From: Watersipora subatra
Lineage: Eukaryota > Bryozoa > Gymnolaemata > Cheilostomatida > Watersiporidae
Direction: 5' to 3'
DNA length: 64,000 bases
Assembly: GCF_963576615.1 (NCBI RefSeq)
Contig: NC_088717.1
Location: 14,700,108 to 14,764,107, forward strand
Shown here: one piece after another, positions 12,707 to 62,906 of the stretch
Layout of the letters: every line of letters starts with the position of its first letter
Numbering within the stretch: position 1 is the stretch's first letter
The notes under the pieces: generated by a model
The model's database searches: none
What the model was told of the DNA's origin: nothing
What the model saw: only the letters and a program-made list of their open reading frames with translations
Program-made: the position numbers and the translations under genes

Positions 12707-14008
12707 TTATTTGCTATTACCGTTTGGTGGGTGGAGAGCCTCTCTGTCTGAAATTTGATCATTCATGGGACACTCGGTAAAGTTAGTGCTCGATCTCGAA
12801 AAATCTCGTTTCGATGTTTTATTCGGTTCAGCCTCTGTAATATCATGAACGATATGTTGTTTGAAAAAATTCTTTTTTCTATGGAGGTAGACGAGAATGA
12901 TGTCAGAGCAAATGGCAGCCATTCCTAGCAGCGCTATTCCTGAGCCAAGGTTAAGCGTGAAGGTCACAAAATCAAAAGCCCTAGCACTCGCTTCAACCTC
13001 GAGTATGAAAAGTATGCCATAGGCTTTGACCAGGTCGCGCTTTCTTACTCCATTTTCATAATAGTACACTGGATAGCGAAAGTTGTATCCTGACCCCAGC
13101 GAATTACCCTTATACTTGTCGAGTCTGTCAAATGAGTACGTAGGCTTACATTTCTCATCTTCGTAGTCAAAGTTGCAATCCCATTTCAGTTTGATCGAGA
13201 CAACACCGCCTTTAATAGCTAGAGCCTCGTACCATTTATCATCGTAAGATAAACTTGCCTCCTTTTTAGTTTCAGCAAGACTTACGATGTCCGATAGTCG
13301 AAGTATCGGACAATATGGGTGCTGTTCATGGTTATAGATGCACCCTCCAAGATAGTCATATGTAACCGATTCTATAAAATTGCTCCGTGTTCTGTCGTAA
13401 TAAGGGAAATAAACATGGTTCTTGATCATAACGGTCCAGTCTTTAGTATCTCTCAGAGTAGCATATCTACCTGCTGCCGGCAGGTTGTCATTCTCGACGG
13501 GGCACCAGCCAACTATGTTGCACCTTTTGGCTGTCTTATCACACCTTCCTGTGCTTCTTCCGTGACCGGCATGCAGGAGGCTGCCCAAAGGCTCGCAATC
13601 GCTGTCATTATCACACAAAAAATCGTTTTCAAACTCTGGACACTCACCTTGTGTCTGATTATACGTTGTAATAATATTTGTTGTGACAAAGAACGCATTA
13701 TTTTCCTCCGGAGGTACAACAAGGTCCGCGGTATCCCAGAGATGTTCTCCAACGCGTGGATCGTCTGTAGCGTTAGTATAGGCGACTCCCTTAAGCTTGG
13801 TCGTTGTACCGCTGATAGCCCCATGGTCAATGTATTGATAGCCTTTGTGCGCAAAAAATATATAACCAACCACATATGATATTATCGCTAATTGAACGAG
13901 TCGGTTGAGAATTCCGATGCTTTTAGAATGAATATGCACAGTTTTCGGGGTGTCGTACTCAAAGCACGTTGAAGAGACAGCACGACGCAAAACTGTACTA
14001 CACCCCAT
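12707..14008 (-). CDS. P2RX: P2X purinoceptor (ATP-gated cation channel), intronless
   Basis: Single open frame of 433 residues. P2X receptors are trimeric ATP-gated cation channels of the plasma membrane. All hallmarks are present: YDTPK near the N-terminus (18-22, conserved phosphorylation site), TM1 about 31-53, ATP-site lysines in TTTKLKG (K71, K73), the ten ectodomain cysteines (123, 132, 138, 156, 163, 169, 223, 233, 278, 287), the NFR motif (309-311), K328 in KAYGI, a glycine-containing TM2 about 344-375 (NLGSGIALLG), and the membrane-proximal YxxxK trafficking motif (YLHRK, 374-378). Length is normal for the family. The start is the first Met of the frame and fits the short P2X N-tail. 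Vertebrate P2X genes have about a dozen exons, so this uninterrupted copy may be a retrogene that has stayed intact. Subtype cannot be assigned; P2X4-like residues are general. Transcribed toward Kidins220. Confidence 0.96.
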   Translation of the reverse strand: MGCSTVLRRAVSSTCFEYDTPKTVHIHSKSIGILNRLVQLAIISYVVGYIFFAHKGYQYIDHGAISGTTTKLKGVAYTNATDDPRVGEHLWDTADLVVPPEENNAFFVTTNIITTYNQTQGECPEFENDFLCDNDSDCEPLGSLLHAGHGRSTGRCDKTAKRCNIVGWCPVENDNLPAAGRYATLRDTKDWTVMIKNHVYFPYYDRTRSNFIESVTYDYLGGCIYNHEQHPYCPILRLSDIVSLAETKKEASLSYDDKWYEALAIKGGVVSIKLKWDCNFDYEDEKCKPTYSFDRLDKYKGNSLGSGYNFRYPVYYYENGVRKRDLVKAYGILFILEVEASARAFDFVTFTLNLGSGIALLGMAAICSDIILVYLHRKKNFFKQHIVHDITEAEPNKTSKRDFSRSSTNFTECPMNDQISDREALHPPNGNSK

Positions 14009-14340
14009 CGTGCTATATAGAGATCTGATACTCTCCTATTCCTACATTACAACCAGCATAAAAATATTATTAGAGATGCACGTGATCGTGCCTATGTGGC
14101 AAGGTGAAGTGATTTAATTGGCTACAAGTAGATTTCTTTAGCATTCATTGATTAAAATTGATTAGGAATGGCGTTGCATGTGAACGAATCATAATTTAAG
14201 TTGTAGTGATCTCCCTGAGGCCCAGTTGGCTAACAGCATTGGATATAAGAAATCTGAGCAGAATATCGGAAAGTATGATTATTTAATGCATGTATATATT
14301 ATATAAAAACTGTTTCCTCAACCCCCTTGAAATAAGTGGG
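14009..14340. other. P2X 5' flank
   Basis: Upstream of P2X. A TATATAG lies only about 10 nt before the ATG, too close for a TATA box unless the real start is downstream. No other promoter element recognised. Confidence 0.4.
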
Positions 14341-21549: not shown

Positions 21550-21616
21550 ATGCACAAAAAATGACAGTGTGAGGTTTATTAATATATATAACAATACTTT
21601 TTTACAATGTTCACCT

Positions 21617-21912
21617 TAAAGGTTGACTTGCGACAAAATTCACATTACAGTTAGTTGGTATTAAGAGGTTCTCCATGTCTTACTCTGTTGTATTGTAGGT
21701 GCAAAATATGTTTTAAATGTGATTACAAGCTCTTAAAAGCTCAAAAATGAACAATTAATTACAACCTTCACAAAAACGCCGTAGTTTGGAATCCCTCTCC
21801 AAAAGGGCTCAAATAGGACAGAGTTGAAATGGATGTGCTCCTGTTTACACTTTCATGCAACCTTTTGATACCAAATAACTATAATGAGAATTTTGTTGCA
21901 AGTCAACCTTTA
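21617..21912. repeat. MITE copy 1 with TTAA-type ends (internally deleted)
   Basis: Starts TTAAAGGTTGACTTGCGAC and ends GTTGCAAGTCAACCTTTAA. The ends are inverted repeats flanked by TTAA, as expected for piggyBac-type targets. Longer copies at 55715-56552 and 59354-60246 share both ends. Confidence 0.8.
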
Positions 21913-21919
21913 AATAAAT

Positions 21920-50351: not shown

Positions 50352-53300
50352 GTAAGGGATGCATTAGTAATGTGTTCAAAATATTCTATGTAATGAAATA
50401 TTGATGAAAGACAGTTATTATGTGTACGTCAGAAATATTTTGTGAAACATTCAAATGTTGTAAGAGTCAACATGTCATCTTTTAAACTCTTGTTAGTATA
50501 ACCGCTAACGCTATAGTTCAGTCGGTACGAGAGTTAGAAGGTAACCGATAGTTATTTTTTGTTTATGTTCACCGACTACTCATGTGTTGGAGGAGTACCA
50601 TGAATTTACTGGTGTATTTTGTTTTAGAAATAGTCTATCCAACTATCGCTCATTGCGATCTTGAAAAAAACATTAATTATCGGAAAGTAGTTTATTTCTA
50701 TTGTATCAACTCTCAACATTTCTATACACAATTTCGCATCTCATTTTTATGTGGTATATTAGTTTGAAGTACATTCGTGTCAACTAATGTGTGAGCTTGA
50801 TAACATCTGCTTTAAACTAAATCTTCTATACTTTTAGCTTTTAATTTACGGGCACTGGAAGATTTTCCTGATGGCTTACTTGGAAGCGGTGGTGGAAATA
50901 TGGTACCAAGTGCTGCTATGATGTCACATCAACCATCATCACAACAACCAATACATGAAACACATCAGAACCTCACTGCTTTACTTTCGACCAATCCTCC
51001 TTCCAAGGATGTAAATCATTCAGGATCAATGAACAATACAATGGTGAACACCTACTCCGGACCTGGTCCAGGTCAATATCATAACAATATGATCCCGAAT
51101 GGTCTATCTAGTGCCAACTATGCGTCGCCAGGATATAATGCTGCTGTTTCTTTCTCTGGATCTAATATGATGTGCGGTTCACCATCCATCTCTTCAAGTA
51201 ACTATTCTGTGAGCAATTCAATGCCTCACACTTCAGTACTATCAAATGCACCACCCAACATGAACACTATGCAAAATCAGCAGCTTTCTGGAATGGTTCA
51301 GCAAAATCAGCAACCTTCTATGCAACAACAGCCGGGACTAGGGATGATGAATGGACCATCATCAGCTATGTCCAACATGAATAATAGAGCACTACCTAAT
51401 AACAATATGACGCCTCGACTTCCACACTCTCAGGTTGGGGATGCAGCAGTCATTATATATGTTAAATAAATCAAGAAATTCTCTTTTTGTATTTTAGTAT
51501 GTTCACTTCTCTACCTTATATGCTTTGTAGTCTATGAATAATAGCAGCATATCCCATCATGGAAACGGGTCAATGCCGGGTCCGGGTGCACCTGGTCAGC
51601 AGATGATTGGTTCAGGCCAAATTGCTACCCCTCGACCAAGTAATGTTTCGCAGCCAAATGGAGGTCAAGTGGCAGCAATCAGTGCCAAGAGGAAACAACT
51701 GCAGCAACAACTTGTTCTGCTGTTACACGCTCACAAATGTCAGCGTCGTGAGCAGTCAAACGGAGAAGTTGACCGTGTTTGTACACTCATGTATTGTAAG
51801 ACTATGAAAGGTGTGTTACAACACATGACAGCGTGTACTGATGGGACACAGTGCCAAGGTATGTGCATCAAAAGCCACTTCTGTTTTGGCTTTTCAACAA
51901 CTGACTGCTGTTGCTGTATCAATTCTCCCGAAAAGTTGGACTTTTTACATCTATTCTCTTGAGACCAGCTTTTATTTTCCTTCAGACTTTTCATCTTTGT
52001 TTACGTGAAAGCTTAAATTTTTACTGCATGTTGGTTGTATTTTAGTGATAATGATATATATGCACCTTTTTAGTTGCTCATTGTGTAACCTCACGACAAA
52101 TCATAGAGCATTGGCGAAGCTGCAATAGAAGTGACTGTCCAGTGTGCTTGCCTCTTAAGAGTGCTTCTGACAAGAAAAAAAGCAGTCAGGCCAGTAAGTA
52201 TCTAGTGGTGTCTATATTTGACACTTGGATAGTTTAAAATATGTTAATGTATGATCTCACGATATTAGTGAAATTATTATATCAGTGTCATAGAAAATGA
52301 TCTGTTCAAAATTATGAGGTGTTTTAGAATCGCCAGCTTTGGTTTTTAGATAGCATGCTCAATAGTTTGGTGCAGAATAACCAAACAGGAGGAAGTAACT
52401 CACTTAATGTCAACGGTTTGGATTTGCCAAATGCTGGACCTGCACTTAGCATGCCGCCGCAGGGCCCTCCTTCCATGTCAAACATACCTGGAAACATGCC
52501 TCCGCCACCAAACTGGCCACAGCAGCCTCCTACGCAACAACCGATAGGCGTTGATTGTGTTGGTCAGTCAAGGCCGCCGGGTCTGGTGGTCAGCGCTCAG
52601 CCTAGAGGACCACTGCCAAATACTCCTAATGTACCATCTAGTGCTAGCGGTTCACAGCCACAGTCTGTTGCCCCTGGACCAGTCAACAGTCAACCATCTG
52701 CTCCAGAAATGATCAAGGCATATGATGCGTTGGGATTACCATATCCTGGTACGGGTATGCAACATAGTGCCTTACCGCAACATCCCGGTAAGTTGCATTC
52801 TGGATTTTCAGGAATTCCATTCAGTTTCTTGTGCTTTATTTATGCTTTTTTCCTTACATCAACTATTGGCACAAATTGTGTCTTGTTATTCACAGTGCAG
52901 CGACATGGTCAGCTGGGGGTTGGGTGTATCACATCATCAAAAGATCAACCGACGAAGGAGTGGCACAAGAATGTAGCTATTGACCTGAGGAATCACCTTG
53001 TGCACAAACTGTATGTCTACAATGCTCTTTTACTCTTTATGTTCGCAAAACTTGATTTTAAACATTATTGAAGTTGTCATTATCATTTTATGGACTGTGA
53101 TTTCAGTTGATCTTGTGTTTTTTCATTGTTTCTCTTTGTAGCCATGGCTTTTTATATGCAGTTTGGTTATCATTCATCTTTCATCCAAATTGTTTTTGAA
53201 CCTTTGTTAGCGAGTATTTATTTAGCTTGCATTTGCTGTGAAAGCAGTTGTTAAATTTATGATTAATGCAGCCTTACCACATTGCTATATAGTGCACGTC

Positions 53301-56300
53301 AGCTGGATCACATGTAAAACGTCCTGTAATACATTTGCAGAGTGCAAGCTATATTCCCATCACCCCAACCAGAGATACTGAATGATCCAAGAATGACCAA
53401 TCTTATACATTATGCAAGGAAGGTAGAGATGGAAATGTACTTCACAGCTAGCAGTCGGGTTAGTTTACAGTTCCAACAAGGTTCCTGTTGGTGATTCCTT
53501 TCTTGATTGTTTTCTCATGGATAATAAAGTCCAGGCATGGGTTAATCGATGTGTGAATCGGTGAGCTCGTAGTAATTTGTTTGATCTTGTTGTTTCTTCT
53601 AAAACTTATTTTACCCTAGGACACTTATGTATTCGCGGCATCTAACTTTCGCGTTTTCGCGGTGTCATCCTCTCGCGAAAATTTAATGAGCGAAACTAAA
53701 CTATCATAACGAACGAGCGAAAACGTGAAGTTAAATAGCTTTGTTCATTGATATTCACGATAAAATCGTCATATTAGAAATGCAGGCGATTTTCGTCTGT
53801 GGTTGGGATCAATGGGAAATTTCTGGTACACTCATTATAGCTAATACACCGACTGAGCAGCATGGCAAAGCAAATTAAGATTATATCAGTTTAGTCACCG
53901 AATTTGTAACTGATGAGGATGAAAGTCTGGTAGGTGAAGTCATAAAATTGCAGAATAATTATTGTAGTGATGAATTTTATTACCAACCAAAAACAATATC
54001 AACCCTCATCAGGTCTAACCACATTATCTCTTCCACTGCCAACCATGTACAAATTAGCTACCGGCCTAGTGCCAGCCATTTTACCGAAATTGCCGATATT
54101 GCTTCATGATATGTATACAGTATTTTTTCAAGTTCTACTTTAATTATCTGTATAATCACGAAAATCTAAATTGGCTATTATGTCATCAACAACTAATTAC
54201 CTGTTTTATGACTCGCGCGGGGTAGTTAATGAACTCACAGAAAAATGTTCGTTTTTAGATTAGCAATTCTCAAACAAAAGTTTAAAATTGCTTCGTTGTT
54301 TTAGGCTGATTTTATAGAGAAATCTTCGGACAACACAGTCAATTTCATAAAACACTTAAAGACCGTGGGTTATGTGGTCAACAAATAATAAAATCAGGTT
54401 ACCAGACAATTGCTGAGAAAGTCCGCAAAATGCGTTTATGGCAGTGGCCCCTAGAAAACCCATAAATGCGTTTATGGCAGCGTAAGGGTTATACAGTTTT
54501 GGTTGTGAAGTTGGTTGCTACCTATCTATTTTCTTTTTCTTGGGATTCGAATGTGAAAGTCACAGCGGTAGGAACCTAGACGTCATTGATAGTCTAAAAA
54601 ACAAATGGCAGCAAGTGATCCATATGAATTGCCGATCTCACCCACACATTTCAACCTGTGGTTTACAAATACGAACTAGTCCCAAATTGAATTTTTTTCT
54701 TATTAGCAAACTGGACCTGAGGAATGTAATCTGTTTTTTCCACTGCATTTATTTTCACATCACTATATTTTCGCACTCATCAGAGCCGCGAAATTAAGTT
54801 GCAGCGAAATTTTATTCTGTGCGCTACTCACGAAACTAAATACTAGCGAAATATAAGTGTCCTAGGGTATATGGATTACCAATGGCCATATATTTTCAAC
54901 TTACCCTGCTGCTCATAAGTTTTCCTAAAACATGTTAACTCATAAAACTATAGCGGTTATCATAATTATGGGAGCGTTTAAAATAAACCCGTTATTCGTT
55001 ATTAATTCTTAGTTTGTTAAGTATTAGATAAATTAAATTTAATGATGACATACATGTGAGTATTATTAACTATCGACTGATATTTGCCCTTTCGGTCTTG
55101 TTTTGGTGTAACGCAGCAATAGTTGCATTTTATGACAAGGAAATCGAATAAACTCTAAGTTTATATTTGTTGACAAAATTAGTGAAGTTTAACATGGTTT
55201 TTGAACATACATGTGCATGCAACTATATGGAAGTAAATTGGTGGCCTTGGGCGTATCAGTAGCATCTTAATATTTAGTTGGTCAGTCCTTTTTGTTAATC
55301 ACAGGATAATATAAAATAGGACAGGATAAGATAAGTAAGGATAGGAGCCCAATAAATAGATTACAATGCACCCATGGGTTATGATGTCCCTGTTATACAG
55401 TCTTTTGGTCTTACGAAGATTGTGGAACTCAATGTTTTTTTCACCCCTGCCATATGATGGTTTTTTTGTGCCATATGATATCAACAAAAATTTCTTGAAA
55501 TACAAATTTGGTAGTCGGCGTGCTGAATACGTCGAAATAATGAAGATGCTGATATGCTATACGCCGAAATCCCTCTTACAATGCATAAAAGAGATTCGAT
55601 GCTCGCTCTCCCTCTCAGTTCAGCATTTGTTGTGTTTTGTAAATGCTCGATATTGCTTGAGCGAAATGAAAATCGGTGAGAATTAAGTGAAAGTTTATTG
55701 TGCATTTTAGCTTTTAAAGGTTTACTTGCAACAAAATTCGCATTGTAGTTGTTTGATATCAAAAAATTCAACATGTCTTACTCTACTGTTGGTGCAAAAT
55801 ATGTGGAAATGTGATTACAAGCTCTTAAAACCTCAATAACGAACAGTTAATCGCAGTCATTACGAAAATGTTGTAGATTAGAATCCCCTTCCAAAATGGC
55901 TCAAATGGGACGTAGCTGAACAAGATGGCTTATGTTTACACTTTCATGCAACCTCATTTGTCGAAATATTTTCACAAATATTTTGAGCACTGATATCTCA
56001 AAACCCACCATAAAAAATCGTTTAATTTTTTTAACCTTAGCTCGAAGGAGTGCGTATCATCTTCTGATAAACAAGAGGAGCCTGTTGGTCGCCTGTGATA
56101 GTCGAAAAATGTTGCAGAAATTATTCGCGCTGTTTGGCAGGAAGTATGGGTCACATAATCAGGTTACGACTAGACGATTGGACCAAGCCGAAACAAAACT
56201 GTAAAGTAGCAAGCATCTATATTTGATACGGGCTTTTCGGTAAAACCCTGAAGTGTTCGTTTAAAACTAGTGCTACGAGACGTTTTATATTGAGCATTTT

Positions 56301-59300
56301 ATTGGCCTTTCAATTCACGTAATAAAATCACGTGTCAAAACAACCAAATTGTTTGAGTACGTCGGAGAAATAAATTGATTCCAACCTACGACGTTATCGT
56401 GATGGCGGCGATGAACTGTTTGTTTTTGAGCTTTTAAGAGCTTGTAATCACATTTCCACATTTTTTGCACCTACAGCACAGCAGAGTAAGACATGGTGAA
56501 TCTTTTGATACTAAATAACTGTAATGTGAATTTTGTTGCAAGTCAACCTTTAATATAATATTAATTATGATTTTAATTTATTATACTAATGTAGCTATAT
56601 AAATACATATATAACTTTACTTTATTTGCAATGGGTCCTGGGCTTGATAATGACATTGAAGGAAGAAGTAGGAAAACGGTTACCATTGCACGTACAGTAC
56701 GTATATAAAATCTTGATGGTTTTTGCATTAGACATTTTTGATAAGTTTCCATACCCTCTATGCGATAATTTTGCCTTACGATGCCAACATTTTGACAAAT
56801 TAATGTCGGATGACGGGAGTGCACTGTATATTTCTTGAGAATAAAACCTGCTGCTCAAATATATATAGAATGCATGATCTGAGATATTAAAGGGAGTTTA
56901 TGCCATAAGTGGGAGTCAATAAAAATGGCCACTTTTTTCCGGACATCTTTGAAATATTTTTAGTTTAGTATAATACTAGATGAATGCCCAGCGTTGCCTG
57001 GGTAATACAACCGTCTTGGGACAGAATTTTTTCTGATCAACAGACAACATTTACCATTCTAACTTTTTAGCTTCATATCATGAGAAAAGGGTTTATTGTG
57101 CAGTTTAAATAAATTGAGAAAAAAATAAAACAGCGATAAAGGTTTTGAAACTTTTTCTAACAACTGTTACTTTTAAATTTCATATCATGAAATAAGTGTT
57201 TTGTTTAAATAAATTTGGAGGAAAAATAAAACTGTAGAAGTGTTTAAATGTAAATGTGAAATCATTAGCAAGTAATCGCTAAATATAGTCTGTTTTGCTA
57301 TGATTACAATGAAAAATTATTTGATTATCAATGAAAAATCATATAGATCCTGTACATTTCAGTGTTGGCATCATGAGGAGAAAATATTGTTTAGATGTAT
57401 AGAGTGATATAGAAACCCATCGTAATTATCAAATGCAATCACCTCCTGGTAAAAATCATCCTCATTAAAAACTAGTAGCAAAACAATATGTTAACCTTGA
57501 GAACTATAGTTACCTACAATAACTTTAGTGCATTTTGTGGTTATGATTTGCAAGAGAATGTAACATTCACTGTACTACGTGCAGAGTTCTTACCTTTGAA
57601 ACAGATGTGTAACTTAAATGCTGAATTTAACTTAAATGAATTTAGCTTACTAAACACTAATTTGAAGGAAGCCTTAGTATGTATTTTAGCAAACTTCAAA
57701 ACTTGTAACTAAAATTTCGTCACTTATCTGTTTGCGAATCCGTTTTTACTATAACGGATAACACTGATAGCGGCAAAATAGCATTTCAATATTTTTGTTA
57801 TTTCGTCATAATCAGTAAAACAATCGCCAAATTCTAATGTCGAGAGAAATTATTGTTGATATTGTGTGGCAATTAACTAATAATAATTAATGTCATTTAG
57901 CGTGTGCATACGGTATATGATAAGAGTGATGAAATGCTAAGGACTGTATAGCTCAGTGGTTAAATGTGTGGTTTGAAACTTGTGGCTGCAATCTCCGTGA
58001 GTTCAAATCTGAACAGACGACAACGTTTGACATTTATAGATATAGATAGTGATACCTCGGCTAGCGAATGCGTATTATCTCGGCCAAATTGGATTTCGAA
58101 CAAAAAGTGTGAGATTTTATGCCTCAGGCTTGAACCAAAAATTCTGCTTTCAACCAAGCCGAAATAAGGTTTTTTTATTTCACATGATGTTTGCTAGGAT
58201 ACGTTACTGTACTCTGTCATTAAAAAATTTTAGACTATAACTTTAGCGTAAGGTAGCCATCACTATTTGAATGTTTATGTTGAAATTGGTAACGATAAAC
58301 CATGAAACTTGTGTTTTTTCCATGATCTTAGATAGAATATCTTATATTAAAATAAGACAGTAGATTTCTATGCTTTTTAATTTATCATAAGTACACAAGA
58401 TTCGGATTAAACAGAGCTGAGTTATGAGTTGCTACTGATACAGTAGTACAGTATATTCCCCGACCTGCATTAGTTCATTATTAGATTTTTATTTGACAAT
58501 CATTGTATTTTACATATTATTTACTCTCTTATGACACGTGATAGTTTATAATGTAAAATAGTAAAACATGCCATAAAGGGCTTTTCTACACTTGGGTTTT
58601 TCTAGAGTGGATATAAATTATTTACATTAATTATAATGGACAAATAGTTTTGGGTTTTGGACAAATTGTCTTTCAAATGGCCTTTTAGAACAAATTATGG
58701 TCGCAAACCATGGTTTGACTATACTTAAAAATATGAATTAATGATCATAATGTAGTTGAAAAAATTTTTTATTCAACTAAATTGCTATTCCAAAATATAT
58801 TCAATGTTTAGAACATATCGCATCATGACACATTAAAGGTACCTCGGACTGATTCTTTCACATTCAATCCCGTTCAATAGTTAGTCTATTCACTCTTTGT
58901 TTGAAAACATTTGAGGAAGCCTTCGGTTTACAAGTGGTTGATCATCTAAATGCGCTTTTGTAGGAGAATTATTATCATATGCTTGCTGAGAAGATATATA
59001 AGATACAGAAGGAGCTGGAGCAGAAAAGGGAGTCACGGCGACAGCAGATGAAAAACATACAAGCAGGCTCTCAGGCTATGCCGGTCATGCCTTCATCGCA
59101 GCCCGGAGCTGGCCCTCCTGAGTTGTCTCAGCTCAACAATATGGCACCCCTTTCTAACGCCGGCTCTATCAATTCCAACATGAATGGTTAGTTTTTGTAA
59201 ACCTTTTACCATAATTGTCTCCAGTACATATGTTAATAATTTTAGGTTGGCAACTATTGAGGTATTTTTGAGCAGTTATTTGACAATAGAAGTGAAACAT

Positions 59301-62300
59301 GCTTTGCTTTCATATGGTAGTATAAACACTATTGCCCTTATTTCTTCTTAAGTTAAAGGTTGACTTGCAACAAAATTCACATTACAGTTATTTGGTTTCA
59401 AAAGATTCACCATGTCTTACTCTGCTGTGTTGTAGATGCAAAATATGTGGAAATGTGATTACAAGCTCTTAAAAGCTCAAAAACGAACAGTTGATCGCAG
59501 CCATCACGAAACCGCCGTAGATCGAAATCACTTTATTTCTCTGACGTAGTCATTACATTTGGTTATTGTTTTGTCATGTGATGTTCTCACGTAAATTGAA
59601 AGGCCAATAAAAGGCTCAATATAGAACTTCTCGTAGCACTAGTTTATGACAAACACTTTGGGTTTTACCAAAGACCTCGTATCAAATATAGACGCTCGCT
59701 ACTTAACAGTCTTGTTTAGGCTTGGTCTAACCTTCTAGTCGTAATCTGATCAAACAGCGCGAAATATTTATGCAGCATTTTTCAACTATCACAGGTGACC
59801 AACAGGCTCGTCATGATTATTGGAGGATGATATGCACTCCTTTGAACTAAGTTTAAAAAATTCAACGAATTTTTATGGTAGGTTTTGAGATATCAGTGCT
59901 CAAAATTGCAGCATTACAATGATGATGAAATAAACGTGTGAGAACAATAGACATGGCTTTATTGAATGCGTGAAGTATATTTGTGAAAATATTTCGACGA
60001 ATGAGGTTGCGTGAAAATATAAACAGAACCCATCTTGTACAACTGCGTCCCATTTGAGCTGTTTTGGAAAGAGATTTTAATCTATGGCGGTCTCGTGATG
60101 GCGGCGATTAACAGTTCGATTTTGAGCTTTTAAGAGCTTGTAATCACATTTCCACATATTTTGCACCTACAACACAGCAGAGTAAGACTTGGTGGATCTA
60201 TTGATATCAAATAACTGTAATGTGAATTTTGTTGCAAGTCAACCTTCAAGGTTTTATTTAAAACTTGCGTGATGTGATGGCTTTCGAAACTCTTACGTGT
60301 TTTTCTAAACAGGTCCCAACAGTGTGCAGTCCAATCCCGGAGGGCCAGGTTCTGTGCCTAGTTATTCTGGTCCACCATCTGCAGGCCCTCAAAGCATTGC
60401 CTCTGCTTCCATGATGAGTCCTCCCATTGGAGGCAGCAACACAGGTATGCCTGTCTCAAAGGCTCTGCAGGAAAGTAAGAATGATTTCCATGAGGCTCGT
60501 AGGAGGCAACAGATGCAGCAAAGTGGCAACGTAAGTAATATCACGCTGCAAGTTGTCTTTGCCTGACCGGTAATGGCGATTTTACAAGCTATCCATGCAT
60601 ATCTGTTGATATGTACATTTAATTTTGGTTTTGTTAAGGAGTTTAAGACGGAGGTGAAGACTGAGCCAGATGTTCCTATGGATGTAATGTCAGGTAATGA
60701 GATGAAGGCTGAGATAAAATCAGAGCCAGTTGTGAAGGTATGTTTACATGTCTAATCTTATTTTTTTGTATTTTTAATGTTTGGTTAATATTCCTATACC
60801 CTCCGAGTATAGTATACATAGTATAGTATACATTGAGTAAGCCATACCATTGATCATTAACCAATACAGCCTAGGTGTTTGATTGATTGATGTACAGTAA
60901 ATAAGAAATAATTTTTGTTTGGGTTATCATTGTATTATTTACGTTAAATAGAGCAGTTTTTGTATCTAATATCTGTGATTCATTTTTAATGCCGAATGTT
61001 CTACAGTCAACATATTTCTTACTGCTCTTTTTTGAAGGTTGTTGAAATTATTTAATTACGTTGAAACTGAAACAGTTTTTCAATTTTTCAACCATCACAG
61101 CTGTTCACACATTACCTCCTTTTCTAGCATAGCATTAGGCTACTAACAAAAGGTTTTTTTGATATGAACATGCAATTTGTAAACTTGAGCACTTTATGTG
61201 GCACATAAATCTAGAGTTGCAAGAAAGTGTATCAATGGAAAACTCATCAATATTGGAGTCACAGTAGAAACATCAGTGCACTTAGTAAGGCAAATTCAAC
61301 AAGATAAACATCCGTTGTTAGCCATTTGAAGGTCACTTATTAGTGGTGTAACTAGCAATATAAGCTTATAGTTATCGCAGCCAGCTCCATTTGTCACGAA
61401 AAAAAGAATAAAATCAATACACCTGTAGACTGCGCGGCTCTTGAAAAAATGTCTATTTTTGGATTAGCCCACTTATGATTTTTACTAAACATGACATGAA
61501 TTTAGTTAAACAAAAGTATTGTTGAATTACTCAAAAAATATTTGCAAGTTCTTTAACCAGGATAATTGGGAATGTACTATTATAAACATACAATATGTAT
61601 TTTATACATACTGTATGTTTATAATAGTGTTTTTTTGTTCTCGTTCAGTAAATTACAAAAAATTTCCTTGTTTGTCAAACCTAGCTAGTGTGCAGTCGAG
61701 ATAATTCTATTGGATGCTCTTGTACATGAACTGGTATCATTGTTCGTGAGTTGCCTACCAGATTTTTAGCGTATAGCTTTTATCCATATATCTGTTGTGT
61801 CATTAGGAAGAACCAAGATCAGCACCTCATACCCCAAAGCCCGATGTGAAAGACATAAAGGATGTCAAACCAGCCACCCCTTCCACACAACCTAAACAAC
61901 CGACACAAAAGAAGGTGTTCACCGCTGATGAGCTACGGCAGGCTTTTGTTCCTCTTGTTCAGAAGCTTTTGAAGACTGAGGAGTCTGTGCCTTTTCGTCA
62001 GCCCGTCGATGCTCAGGCTCTCAATATACCGGTGAGTATCTTTAGCTTCACGTGCCCTCAATATACCCTAGAGTATCTGTAACTCCATGTGCCCTCAATA
62101 TACCCGTGAGTATCTTTAACGTCACGTGCCCTCAATATACCCGTGAGTATCTGTAACTCCATGTGCCCTCAATATACCAGTGAGTATCTTTAGCGTCACG
62201 TGCCCTCAATATACCCGTGAGTATCTTTAACTCCATGTGCCCTCAATATACCCGTGAGTATCTTTAGCTTCACGTGCCCTCAATATACCCGTGAGTATCT

Positions 62301-62906
62301 TTAACTCCATGTGCCCTCAATATACCCGTGAGTATCTTTAGCGTCACGTGCCCTCAATATACCCGTGAGTATCTTTAGCTTCACGTGCCCTCAATATACC
62401 CGTGAGTATCTTTAGCTTCACATGCCCTCAATATACCCGTGAGTATCTTTAGCTTGATGGGCCCTCAATATACTACCTGTGAGTATCTTTAGCTTGATGG
62501 GCCCTCAATATACTACCCGTGAGTATCTTTAGCTTGATGGGCCATCAATATACCCGTGGGTATCTTTAGCTTGATGGGCCCTCAATATACCCGTGAGTAT
62601 CTTTAGCTTGATGGGCCACGCCAAACCCGCACTCTTTCAATCTTCTCAATTCTTTGTCAACTACTTTTTGTCTGCTTGCAGATTGGTCACACATTAGCAG
62701 CATATTTTATTGTGGTATTCCTCGCGTTGTTTTAGGACTACCATCACATTATCAAGAATCCCATGGACCTTCAGTCGATACAGAATAAGTTAGACGCTGG
62801 TTCTTATGATGATCCTTGGCAGTTTTGCGATGATGTCTGGCTGATGTTTGATAATTGCTGGGCATATAATCGCAAAACCTCAAGGGTGTACAAGTCTGGA
62901 TCCAAG
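50270..62906 (+). CDS. CREBBP: CREB-binding protein / p300 histone acetyltransferase, N-terminal part (gene span)
   Basis: Twelve exons: 50270-50351, 50838-51433, 51531-51858, 52074-52193, 52350-52787, 52896-53010, 53341-53458, 58964-59186, 60313-60530, 60639-60737, 61807-62031, 62736-62906. They join in frame for 911 residues and run off the right edge. CBP/p300 is a nuclear transcriptional coactivator and lysine acetyltransferase. Seen in order: N-terminal [10 protein letters not shown] (CBP NLS-like), a Gln/Met/Asn-rich nuclear receptor-interacting-type region, TAZ1 (about 279-366, all twelve HCCC zinc ligands), a Pro-rich linker, KIX (about 541-625), a linker, a SUMO-motif-rich CRD1-like segment (747-779), and the bromodomain (about 813 onward). 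The acetyl-lysine-binding Asn is in YNRKTSRVY. The HAT, ZZ, TAZ2 and NCBD domains lie beyond the window. At this point the protein is about 260 residues shorter than human CBP because linkers are shorter. Invertebrates usually have one CBP/p300 gene, so CBP versus p300 is not distinguishable. Confidence 0.97.
50838..51433 (+). CDS. CREBBP: CBP exon 2
   Basis: Acceptor TACTTTTAG; donor GTTGGG (weak) at 51434. Begins [20 protein letters not shown], aligning with human FDLENDLPDELIPNGG, then a long Ser/Asn/Met/Gln-rich disordered region. The ALLSTNPP motif corresponds to the LSELLRG nuclear-receptor box area but lacks LXXLL. Confidence 0.92.
51531..51858 (+). CDS. CREBBP: CBP exon 3 (TAZ1 first half)
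   Basis: Acceptor GCTTTGTAG; donor GTATGT at 51859. Ends with [18 protein letters not shown], then zinc ligands in RVC, MYC, LQHMTAC and TQC. Confidence 0.97.
52074..52193 (+). CDS. CREBBP: CBP exon 4 (TAZ1 second half)
   Basis: Encodes [17 protein letters not shown] and [16 protein letters not shown], near identical to human. Donor GTAAGT. Confidence 0.97.
52350..52787 (+). CDS. CREBBP: CBP exon 5 (linker)
   Basis: Pro/Asn/Gln-rich linker, ending with [14 protein letters not shown], equivalent to human MQRAYAALGLPYMN. Donor GTAAGT at 52788. Confidence 0.93.
52896..53010 (+). CDS. CREBBP: CBP exon 6 (KIX first part)
   Basis: Encodes [18 protein letters not shown], the first KIX helix. Donor GTATGT splits a Leu codon. 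Confidence 0.97.
53341..53458 (+). CDS. CREBBP: CBP exon 7 (KIX middle)
   Basis: [18 protein letters not shown] then the ARKVEMEMY helix, ending SSR. Human VQAIFPTPDPAALKDRRM. Confidence 0.97.
53612..54869. mobile_element. Non-autonomous DNA transposon, 1.26 kb, TA-flanked
   Basis: Perfect 18-bp inverted ends: TACCCTAGGACACTTAT at the left and ATAAGTGTCCTAGGGTA at the right, the outer TA probably being the target duplication. Subterminal GCGAAA/TTTCGC words are frequent at both ends. No transposase frame inside. Confidence 0.85.
55715..56552. mobile_element. TTAA-type MITE, copy 2 (838 bp)
   Basis: TTAAAGGTTTACTTGCAAC to GTTGCAAGTCAACCTTTAA. Inverted terminal arms extend about 110-140 bp (AAATGTGATTACAAGCTCTT versus AAGAGCTTGTAATCACATTT). 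The interior matches copy 3 in opposite orientation. No transposase. Confidence 0.88.
57940..58165 (+). repeat. tRNA-derived SINE
   Basis: TATAGCTCAGTGGTTAAA is a near-perfect box A and GAGTTCAAATCTGAAC a box B-like sequence, with a body through CTCGGCTAGCGAATGCG. Acceptor and T stems do not pair well, so not a functional tRNA. Confidence 0.65.
58964..59186 (+). CDS. CREBBP: CBP exon 8 (KIX end)
   Basis: Begins [18 protein letters not shown], the third KIX helix with the conserved Tyr residues, then a Pro/Ser linker. Donor GTTAGT. Confidence 0.97.
59354..60246. mobile_element. TTAA-type MITE, copy 3 (893 bp)
   Basis: TTAAAGGTTGACTTGCAAC to GTTGCAAGTCAACCTT, in CBP intron 8. Its interior (TTGAAAGGCCAATAAAAGGC, GAGATATCAGTGCTCAAAAT) is the reverse complement of the interior of copy 2, so the two inserted in opposite orientation. 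Confidence 0.88.
60313..60530 (+). CDS. CREBBP: CBP exon 9 (linker)
   Basis: Gly/Pro/Ser linker, ending [18 protein letters not shown]. Donor GTAAGT at 60531. Confidence 0.9.
60639..60737 (+). CDS. CREBBP: CBP exon 10 (CRD1-like, SUMO motifs)
   Basis: 33 codons: [17 protein letters not shown], then MKAEIKSEP. Four hydrophobic-K-x-E or closely similar motifs ([16 protein letters not shown]) in one short exon fit the SUMO-dependent repression segment (CRD1) described for p300/CBP. Acceptor TTTTGTTAAG is atypical (AAG) but AG-ending. Confidence 0.85.
60738..61806 (+). other. CBP intron 10 with hairpin
   Basis: AT-rich, no exon. Contains the inverted repeat at 61576-61628. Confidence 0.8.
61576..61628. 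repeat. Inverted repeat, 24-bp arms, one mismatch
   Basis: ACTATTATAAACATACAATA... pairs with ...GTATGTTTATAATAGT around a 5-nt loop. Confidence 0.85.
61807..62031 (+). CDS. CREBBP: CBP exon 11 (bromodomain start)
   Basis: Ser/Thr/Pro-rich lead, then [20 protein letters not shown] and [15 protein letters not shown], aligning with human KKIFKPEELRQALMPTLEAL and LPFRQPVDPQLLGIP. Donor GTGAGT at 62032, the first unit of a tandem array. Confidence 0.97.
62032..62619 (+). repeat. 37-bp minisatellite built from the CBP exon 11 splice donor, about 16 units
   Basis: Units of GTGAGTATCTTTAGC..., TGCCCTCAATATACCC, each ending with a copy of the last exon bases (CTCAATATACC) followed by GTGAGTATCT. 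Fifteen full units plus a partial one; two units are 40 bp. At least twelve repeat copies after the authentic donor keep GTGAGT intact. Confidence 0.95.
62736..62906 (+). CDS. CREBBP: CBP exon 12 (bromodomain core)
   Basis: [19 protein letters not shown] and [18 protein letters not shown], then [12 protein letters not shown]; donor GTAAAA at 62907. Contains the acetyl-lysine-binding Asn. Human has KFCSK where this protein has KSGSK. Confidence 0.97.

Follow-up and report, generated by a model that had tools for sequence, protein, structure and literature searches.

A CBP/p300-type gene carries a minisatellite at a bromodomain exon junction

The window analyzed here is a 64,000-nucleotide stretch of the genome of the bryozoan Watersipora subatra (C10:14700108-14764107, where C10 denotes contig NC_088717.1), and our genome-wide searches covered 783.7 Mb in 239 contigs. 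A search for the marker COX1 gave no matches. The end of the window carries a CBP/p300-type gene on the + strand, within which Pfam matches were obtained for a TAZ zinc finger and a bromodomain. The bromodomain is encoded by two exons flanking an intron that is largely occupied by a minisatellite (Table 1). When joined, these exons match the domain with a Pfam E-value of 3.7e-21, and in the PDB the top match of the joined piece, among the best 60 of 379 matched sequences, was CREB-binding protein (5xxh, E 1.2e-39). Other pieces of the gene within the window, recognized by eye from their motifs, we take to be KIX. Up to 14 kb past the window end, we assigned open frames by visual inspection to PHD, acetyltransferase, ZZ, TAZ2, and C-terminal parts, and a family search confirmed the acetyltransferase domain at C10:14765127-14766014. 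Judged from its domains and open frames rather than from a full gene model, the CBP gene looks intact.

Tandem Repeats Finder (TRF) places the minisatellite at 62020-62617, with a period of 37, 16.0 copies, 89% matches, and a score of 876. The array begins within the CBP coding exon, whose last 12 nt form the opening of the repeat unit, so that unit 1 spans the exon-intron boundary. Fourteen units, including the last (62581-62617), are 37 bp long, and units 13 and 14 each measure 40 bp. A GT is kept at the donor position in 14 of the 15 downstream units and a complete GTGAGT in 13 of them; with the authentic site included, 14 GTGAGT sites lie within 567 nt. The original prediction, made from the letters of this stretch, had described a 37-bp minisatellite of about 16 units at the end of what it numbered CBP exon 11, with the exon end and authentic donor as its repeat unit and GTGAGT kept in most copies, and all of this is borne out. 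It had also contrasted CCG at the real junction with CCC in the copies. The difference at position -1 stands, as G is found solely in unit 1 of the 16, but the copies are not uniformly C and may also carry A or T.

The existence of the 37-bp array is far outside chance expectation. Less noteworthy is its location at a splice junction, given that 28 merged arrays (TRF score of at least 100, period of at least 10, and at least 3 copies) take up 17.8 kb out of 204 kb surveyed. Within units 1-11, mean identity is higher at a lag of two units (95.2%) than at a lag of one (89.2%), a two-unit pattern that we read as a sign of growth by dimers. Units 12-16 form a third unit type, ending in TTGATGGGCC.

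Table 1 Features of the array-bearing CBP region and its downstream counterpart (window positions unless a contig is given)
Feature	Coordinates	Strand	Description
CBP exon upstream of array	61807..62031	+	Ends QALNIP, phase 0; open frame, junction, and bromodomain match; start placed by the acceptor CATTAG
CBP intron	62032..62735	+	704 nt, mostly array; ends with acceptor TTTTAG
Array unit 1	62020..62056	+	CTCAATATACCG, encoding L N I P at the exon end, then GTGAGTATCTTTAGCTTCACGTGCC, covering the donor and the start of the intron; authentic donor CCG/GTGAGT at 62031/62032
Array unit 2	62057..62093	+	Donor lost (TAGAGT, no GT); contains in-frame TAA 62080-62082
Array units 3-16	62094..62617	+	13 GTGAGT and one GTGGGT (unit 15), putative decoy donors
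Downstream CBP exon	62736..62906	+	Follows TTTTAG; ends YKSGSK, then donor AAG/GTAAAA; bromodomain match
Second 37-bp array	C10:14874358-14875082		In truncated CBP duplicate; 23 units, by manual split

An in-frame stop and an authentic donor predicted to be stronger precede the usable copies

When the exon frame is extended into the intron, 16 codons are added before the TAA of unit 2 is reached. The first downstream GT donor, at 62106, lies beyond this stop, as do all 14 downstream GT donors irrespective of phase. Since the TAA precedes every usable copy, use of a decoy could give only a premature stop and never an in-frame product. The proposal that every third copy would restore the frame therefore fails: unit 2 has no donor, and the stop comes before the first copy that has one. 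A decoy donor, if used, would be unproductive, giving a premature stop and probably nonsense-mediated decay.

Pairing energies were calculated against a U1 5′ end taken to be AUACUUACCUG, which may differ from this genome's own U1. The predicted duplex with the authentic donor is -11.4 kcal/mol, compared with -7.8, -7.7, and -7.5 kcal/mol for GTGAGT copies preceded by CCC, CCA, and CCT, respectively, -7.0 kcal/mol for unit 15, and -4.0 kcal/mol for unit 2. The authentic donor is thus predicted to pair ∼3.6 kcal/mol more strongly than the usual copy. That it is first in order and that its predicted pairing tops that of each kind of copy argues against strong competition by the copies. Predicted accessibility followed no consistent pattern among the donors (0.08 to 0.64), and that of the authentic donor was 0.53. 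Masking of the decoys by RNA structure was rejected as a candidate explanation, as the array is predicted to fold no better than its shuffles (z +1.59), 18 of the 20 shuffled sequences equaling or exceeding its stability.

A paralogue has the same intron but not the array

The same genome contains a second, diverged CBP/p300-like gene at C8:18061108-18070497, which matches the window gene in two exons, at 60% across 57 residues and 43% across 46. It has an intron at the identical codon and in the identical phase, with the junction CTGAATATTCCG/GTGAGTGTAG (CTGAATATTCCG/GTGAGT) and the acceptor TTGTAG/GACTAT. In this intron, 1531 nt long by its coordinates, we found no further GTRAGT and no 37-bp array; the best echo of the junction 22-mer has 8 mismatches, and the sole TRF repeat is an 11-bp unit of 4.3 copies located away from the junction. 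Since the intron position is common to both genes and the paralogue lacks this array, the intron would most simply predate the paralogue split, with the array a later addition. On the same comparison, CCG/GTGAGT is probably the ancestral junction.

A longer array lies in a truncated CBP duplicate

A genome-wide pattern search, which counts exact copies only and gives lower bounds, returned 25 matches, 12 in the window array and 13 in a second array ∼112 kb downstream (Table 1). The flank before the second array aligns to window positions 60255-61927 at 1542 of 1632 bases (94.5%); a further 178 columns are gaps, among them those of the missing exon part. In this truncated duplicate the exon breaks off after ACCGC and leads directly into the array, and the remnant of the frame meets a stop within the first unit. 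At its far end, the array joins a stretch 94% identical to the apparent last CBP exon, which lies ∼12.4 kb past the window. GTGAGT is present in 18 of the 23 units and a CCG ending in two of them, though the authentic junction is gone there; a G at position -1 can thus occur within an array. The two paralogous arrays have 16 versus 23 units and now have only two unit-tail types in common, one array showing 7 such types and the other 11. Comparison of the two loci suggests that the array most likely predates the duplication that gave the truncated copy.

Spread of the array by a dispersed element was considered and rejected, as a search of the window listed no other match to the unit at E-values up to 1 and all 25 exact matches fall in the two C10 arrays. 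In other collections, we obtained no confirmed loci in genome_contigs or viral_contigs and no pattern matches in viral_contigs.

The second array is part of a larger region, C10:14841500-14875200 (∼77-111 kb past the window end), that holds partial duplicates of the middle of CBP (window 52580-62609), with the KIX part in two copies. Several of the duplicate blocks end at minisatellite arrays (52-bp x28 and x72, 32-bp x30, and 37-bp x23). The 52-bp unit corresponds to an intron stretch of CBP (58408-58459) for which the intact gene offers a single good match (49 of 52 bases, the next best having 28); the downstream duplicates hold arrays of 28 and 72 copies, providing a before-and-after view of minisatellite birth. 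As single-copy intron sequence readily becomes arrays in this genome, it is believable that an array at a splice junction could arise neutrally.

Comparison with known boundary-spanning repeats

Repeats that span exon-intron boundaries, and the idea that they supply multiple donors, are already published. Turri et al. (1995) reportedly described multiple splice donors in the minisatellite of IFI6 (6-16, G1P3). The human IFI6 minisatellite supplies several donors, of which two downstream units are used (PMC4526556). Three mRNAs result from IFI6, whereas no in-frame variant could arise from the CBP array, owing to the unit 2 stop.

The closest likeness is to the amphioxus "mirages," a name coined in cephalochordates for minisatellites that cross exon-intron boundaries. 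The accounts place them in Adh3 and the globins BflGb6 and BflGb9 (PMC3087553) and also in TnC and PGBD5 (PMC3902484). As with these mirages, the CBP unit spans the boundary, with 12 exon bases and the donor, and its retention of GT in most downstream units resembles mirages in which many but not all copies keep AG/GT. Unlike them, it has CBP as its host gene and a 37-bp unit, compared with 10-72 bp in Adh3, ∼150-160 bp in the globins, and 60 and 108 bp in PGBD5. The array copy in a truncated duplicate has no counterpart in the consulted passages of the amphioxus accounts. In amphioxus, Adh3 data and reverse transcription-polymerase chain reaction on the globins suggest that regular splicing is undisturbed, with the remark that copies could act as cryptic sites (PMC3087553); the Adh and TnC mirages are stated to yield no aberrant mRNAs, and the same is suggested for PGBD5 (PMC3902484). 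In Caenorhabditis elegans, minisatellites near alternative exons have been tied to splicing choices, and the consulted passages do not describe them as copies of a splice junction (PMC4039745). We met no report of a boundary array in CBP in the literature searched, where searches were not aimed at CBP by name, and we make no claim that it is unreported.

A neutral array on an old intron is the favored interpretation

Taken together, these results make it likely that an old CBP intron hosts a mirage-type minisatellite that is neutral and whose copies are probably ignored in splicing. We propose that a 37-bp stretch across the exon end and donor was tandemly duplicated within the existing intron and that the array would then have grown by slippage or unequal exchange, partly as a 74-bp dimer. 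It would have been carried as near-neutral intron sequence, with the spliceosome taking the first site, the strongest and the one directly after the exon.

Several observations weigh against this interpretation. The retention of G at position -1 in the boundary unit alone of 16 could reflect selection on splice-site contrast. The donors of units 10 and 13 have predicted accessibilities (0.64 and 0.63) above that of the authentic donor. Variable columns are fewer in the exon-plus-donor portion of the repeat (5 of 22) than in its tail (8 of 15), counted after both 40-bp units were trimmed to 37 by removing their 3-base insertion; the difference is not significant (Fisher p = 0.083), and the split was chosen post hoc. 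Lastly, repeat donors downstream in IFI6 are in use (PMC4526556).

The IFI6 precedent also lends itself to a different reading, in which the array competes for U1, some transcripts use decoys and are degraded after stopping at the TAA, and array length tunes the dose of CBP. What speaks for such a dial at CBP itself is anatomy, namely 14 downstream GT donors, 13 of them GTGAGT, with a stop before all of them. However, the authentic donor is first and strongest in predicted pairing, the nearest copy (unit 2) is dead, and the amphioxus precedents reportedly splice normally. We regard unproductive splicing of this kind as improbable. Its fuller version, a copy-number-dependent dose dial in which decoys divert some transcripts to the premature stop and the G at -1 of the authentic junction alone preserves contrast, appears more doubtful still. 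Either way, the CBP array offers a natural experiment on the choice that the spliceosome makes of one donor among 15 near-identical GT sites, and the same genome supplies two comparators: a paralogue that shares the intron without such an array and a truncated duplicate whose array is longer.

It has also to be asked whether the dense run of GTGAGT sites recruits U1 and thereby aids definition of the true junction or guards against premature polyadenylation. Such buffering is very unlikely, since the C8 paralogue has the same junction without this array and the case for selection on the copies is not significant. That the array created the intron is a still more remote prospect: the array occupies most of the intron and a model of intron gain via such arrays has been proposed for amphioxus globins (PMC3087553), but the sharing of intron position, codon, and phase with a paralogue that lacks this array argues against it here. 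For CBP, the comparison instead indicates an intron that was in place before the boundary array arose. Misassembly is frequent in tandem arrays, but an assembly artifact is hardly credible here given the variant-rich units, the dimer pattern, and a second array of different composition elsewhere.

Other repeats and genes in the window

At the edges of the other window arrays, no exon was recognized among the flanks of eight that were viewed or by an echo scan, a weak negative as most window genes are unannotated. An element of ∼900 bp at 59353-60249 recurs at 55714-56553 and 21616-21917, with several copies in and beyond the window. Its inverted ends of ∼180 bp are 91% alike (59353-59534 versus 60068-60249), and it looks like a non-autonomous DNA transposon. 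On the - strand, a P2X receptor is encoded at 12710-14035 in a single unbroken frame of 442 codons (Pfam E 1.9e-117).
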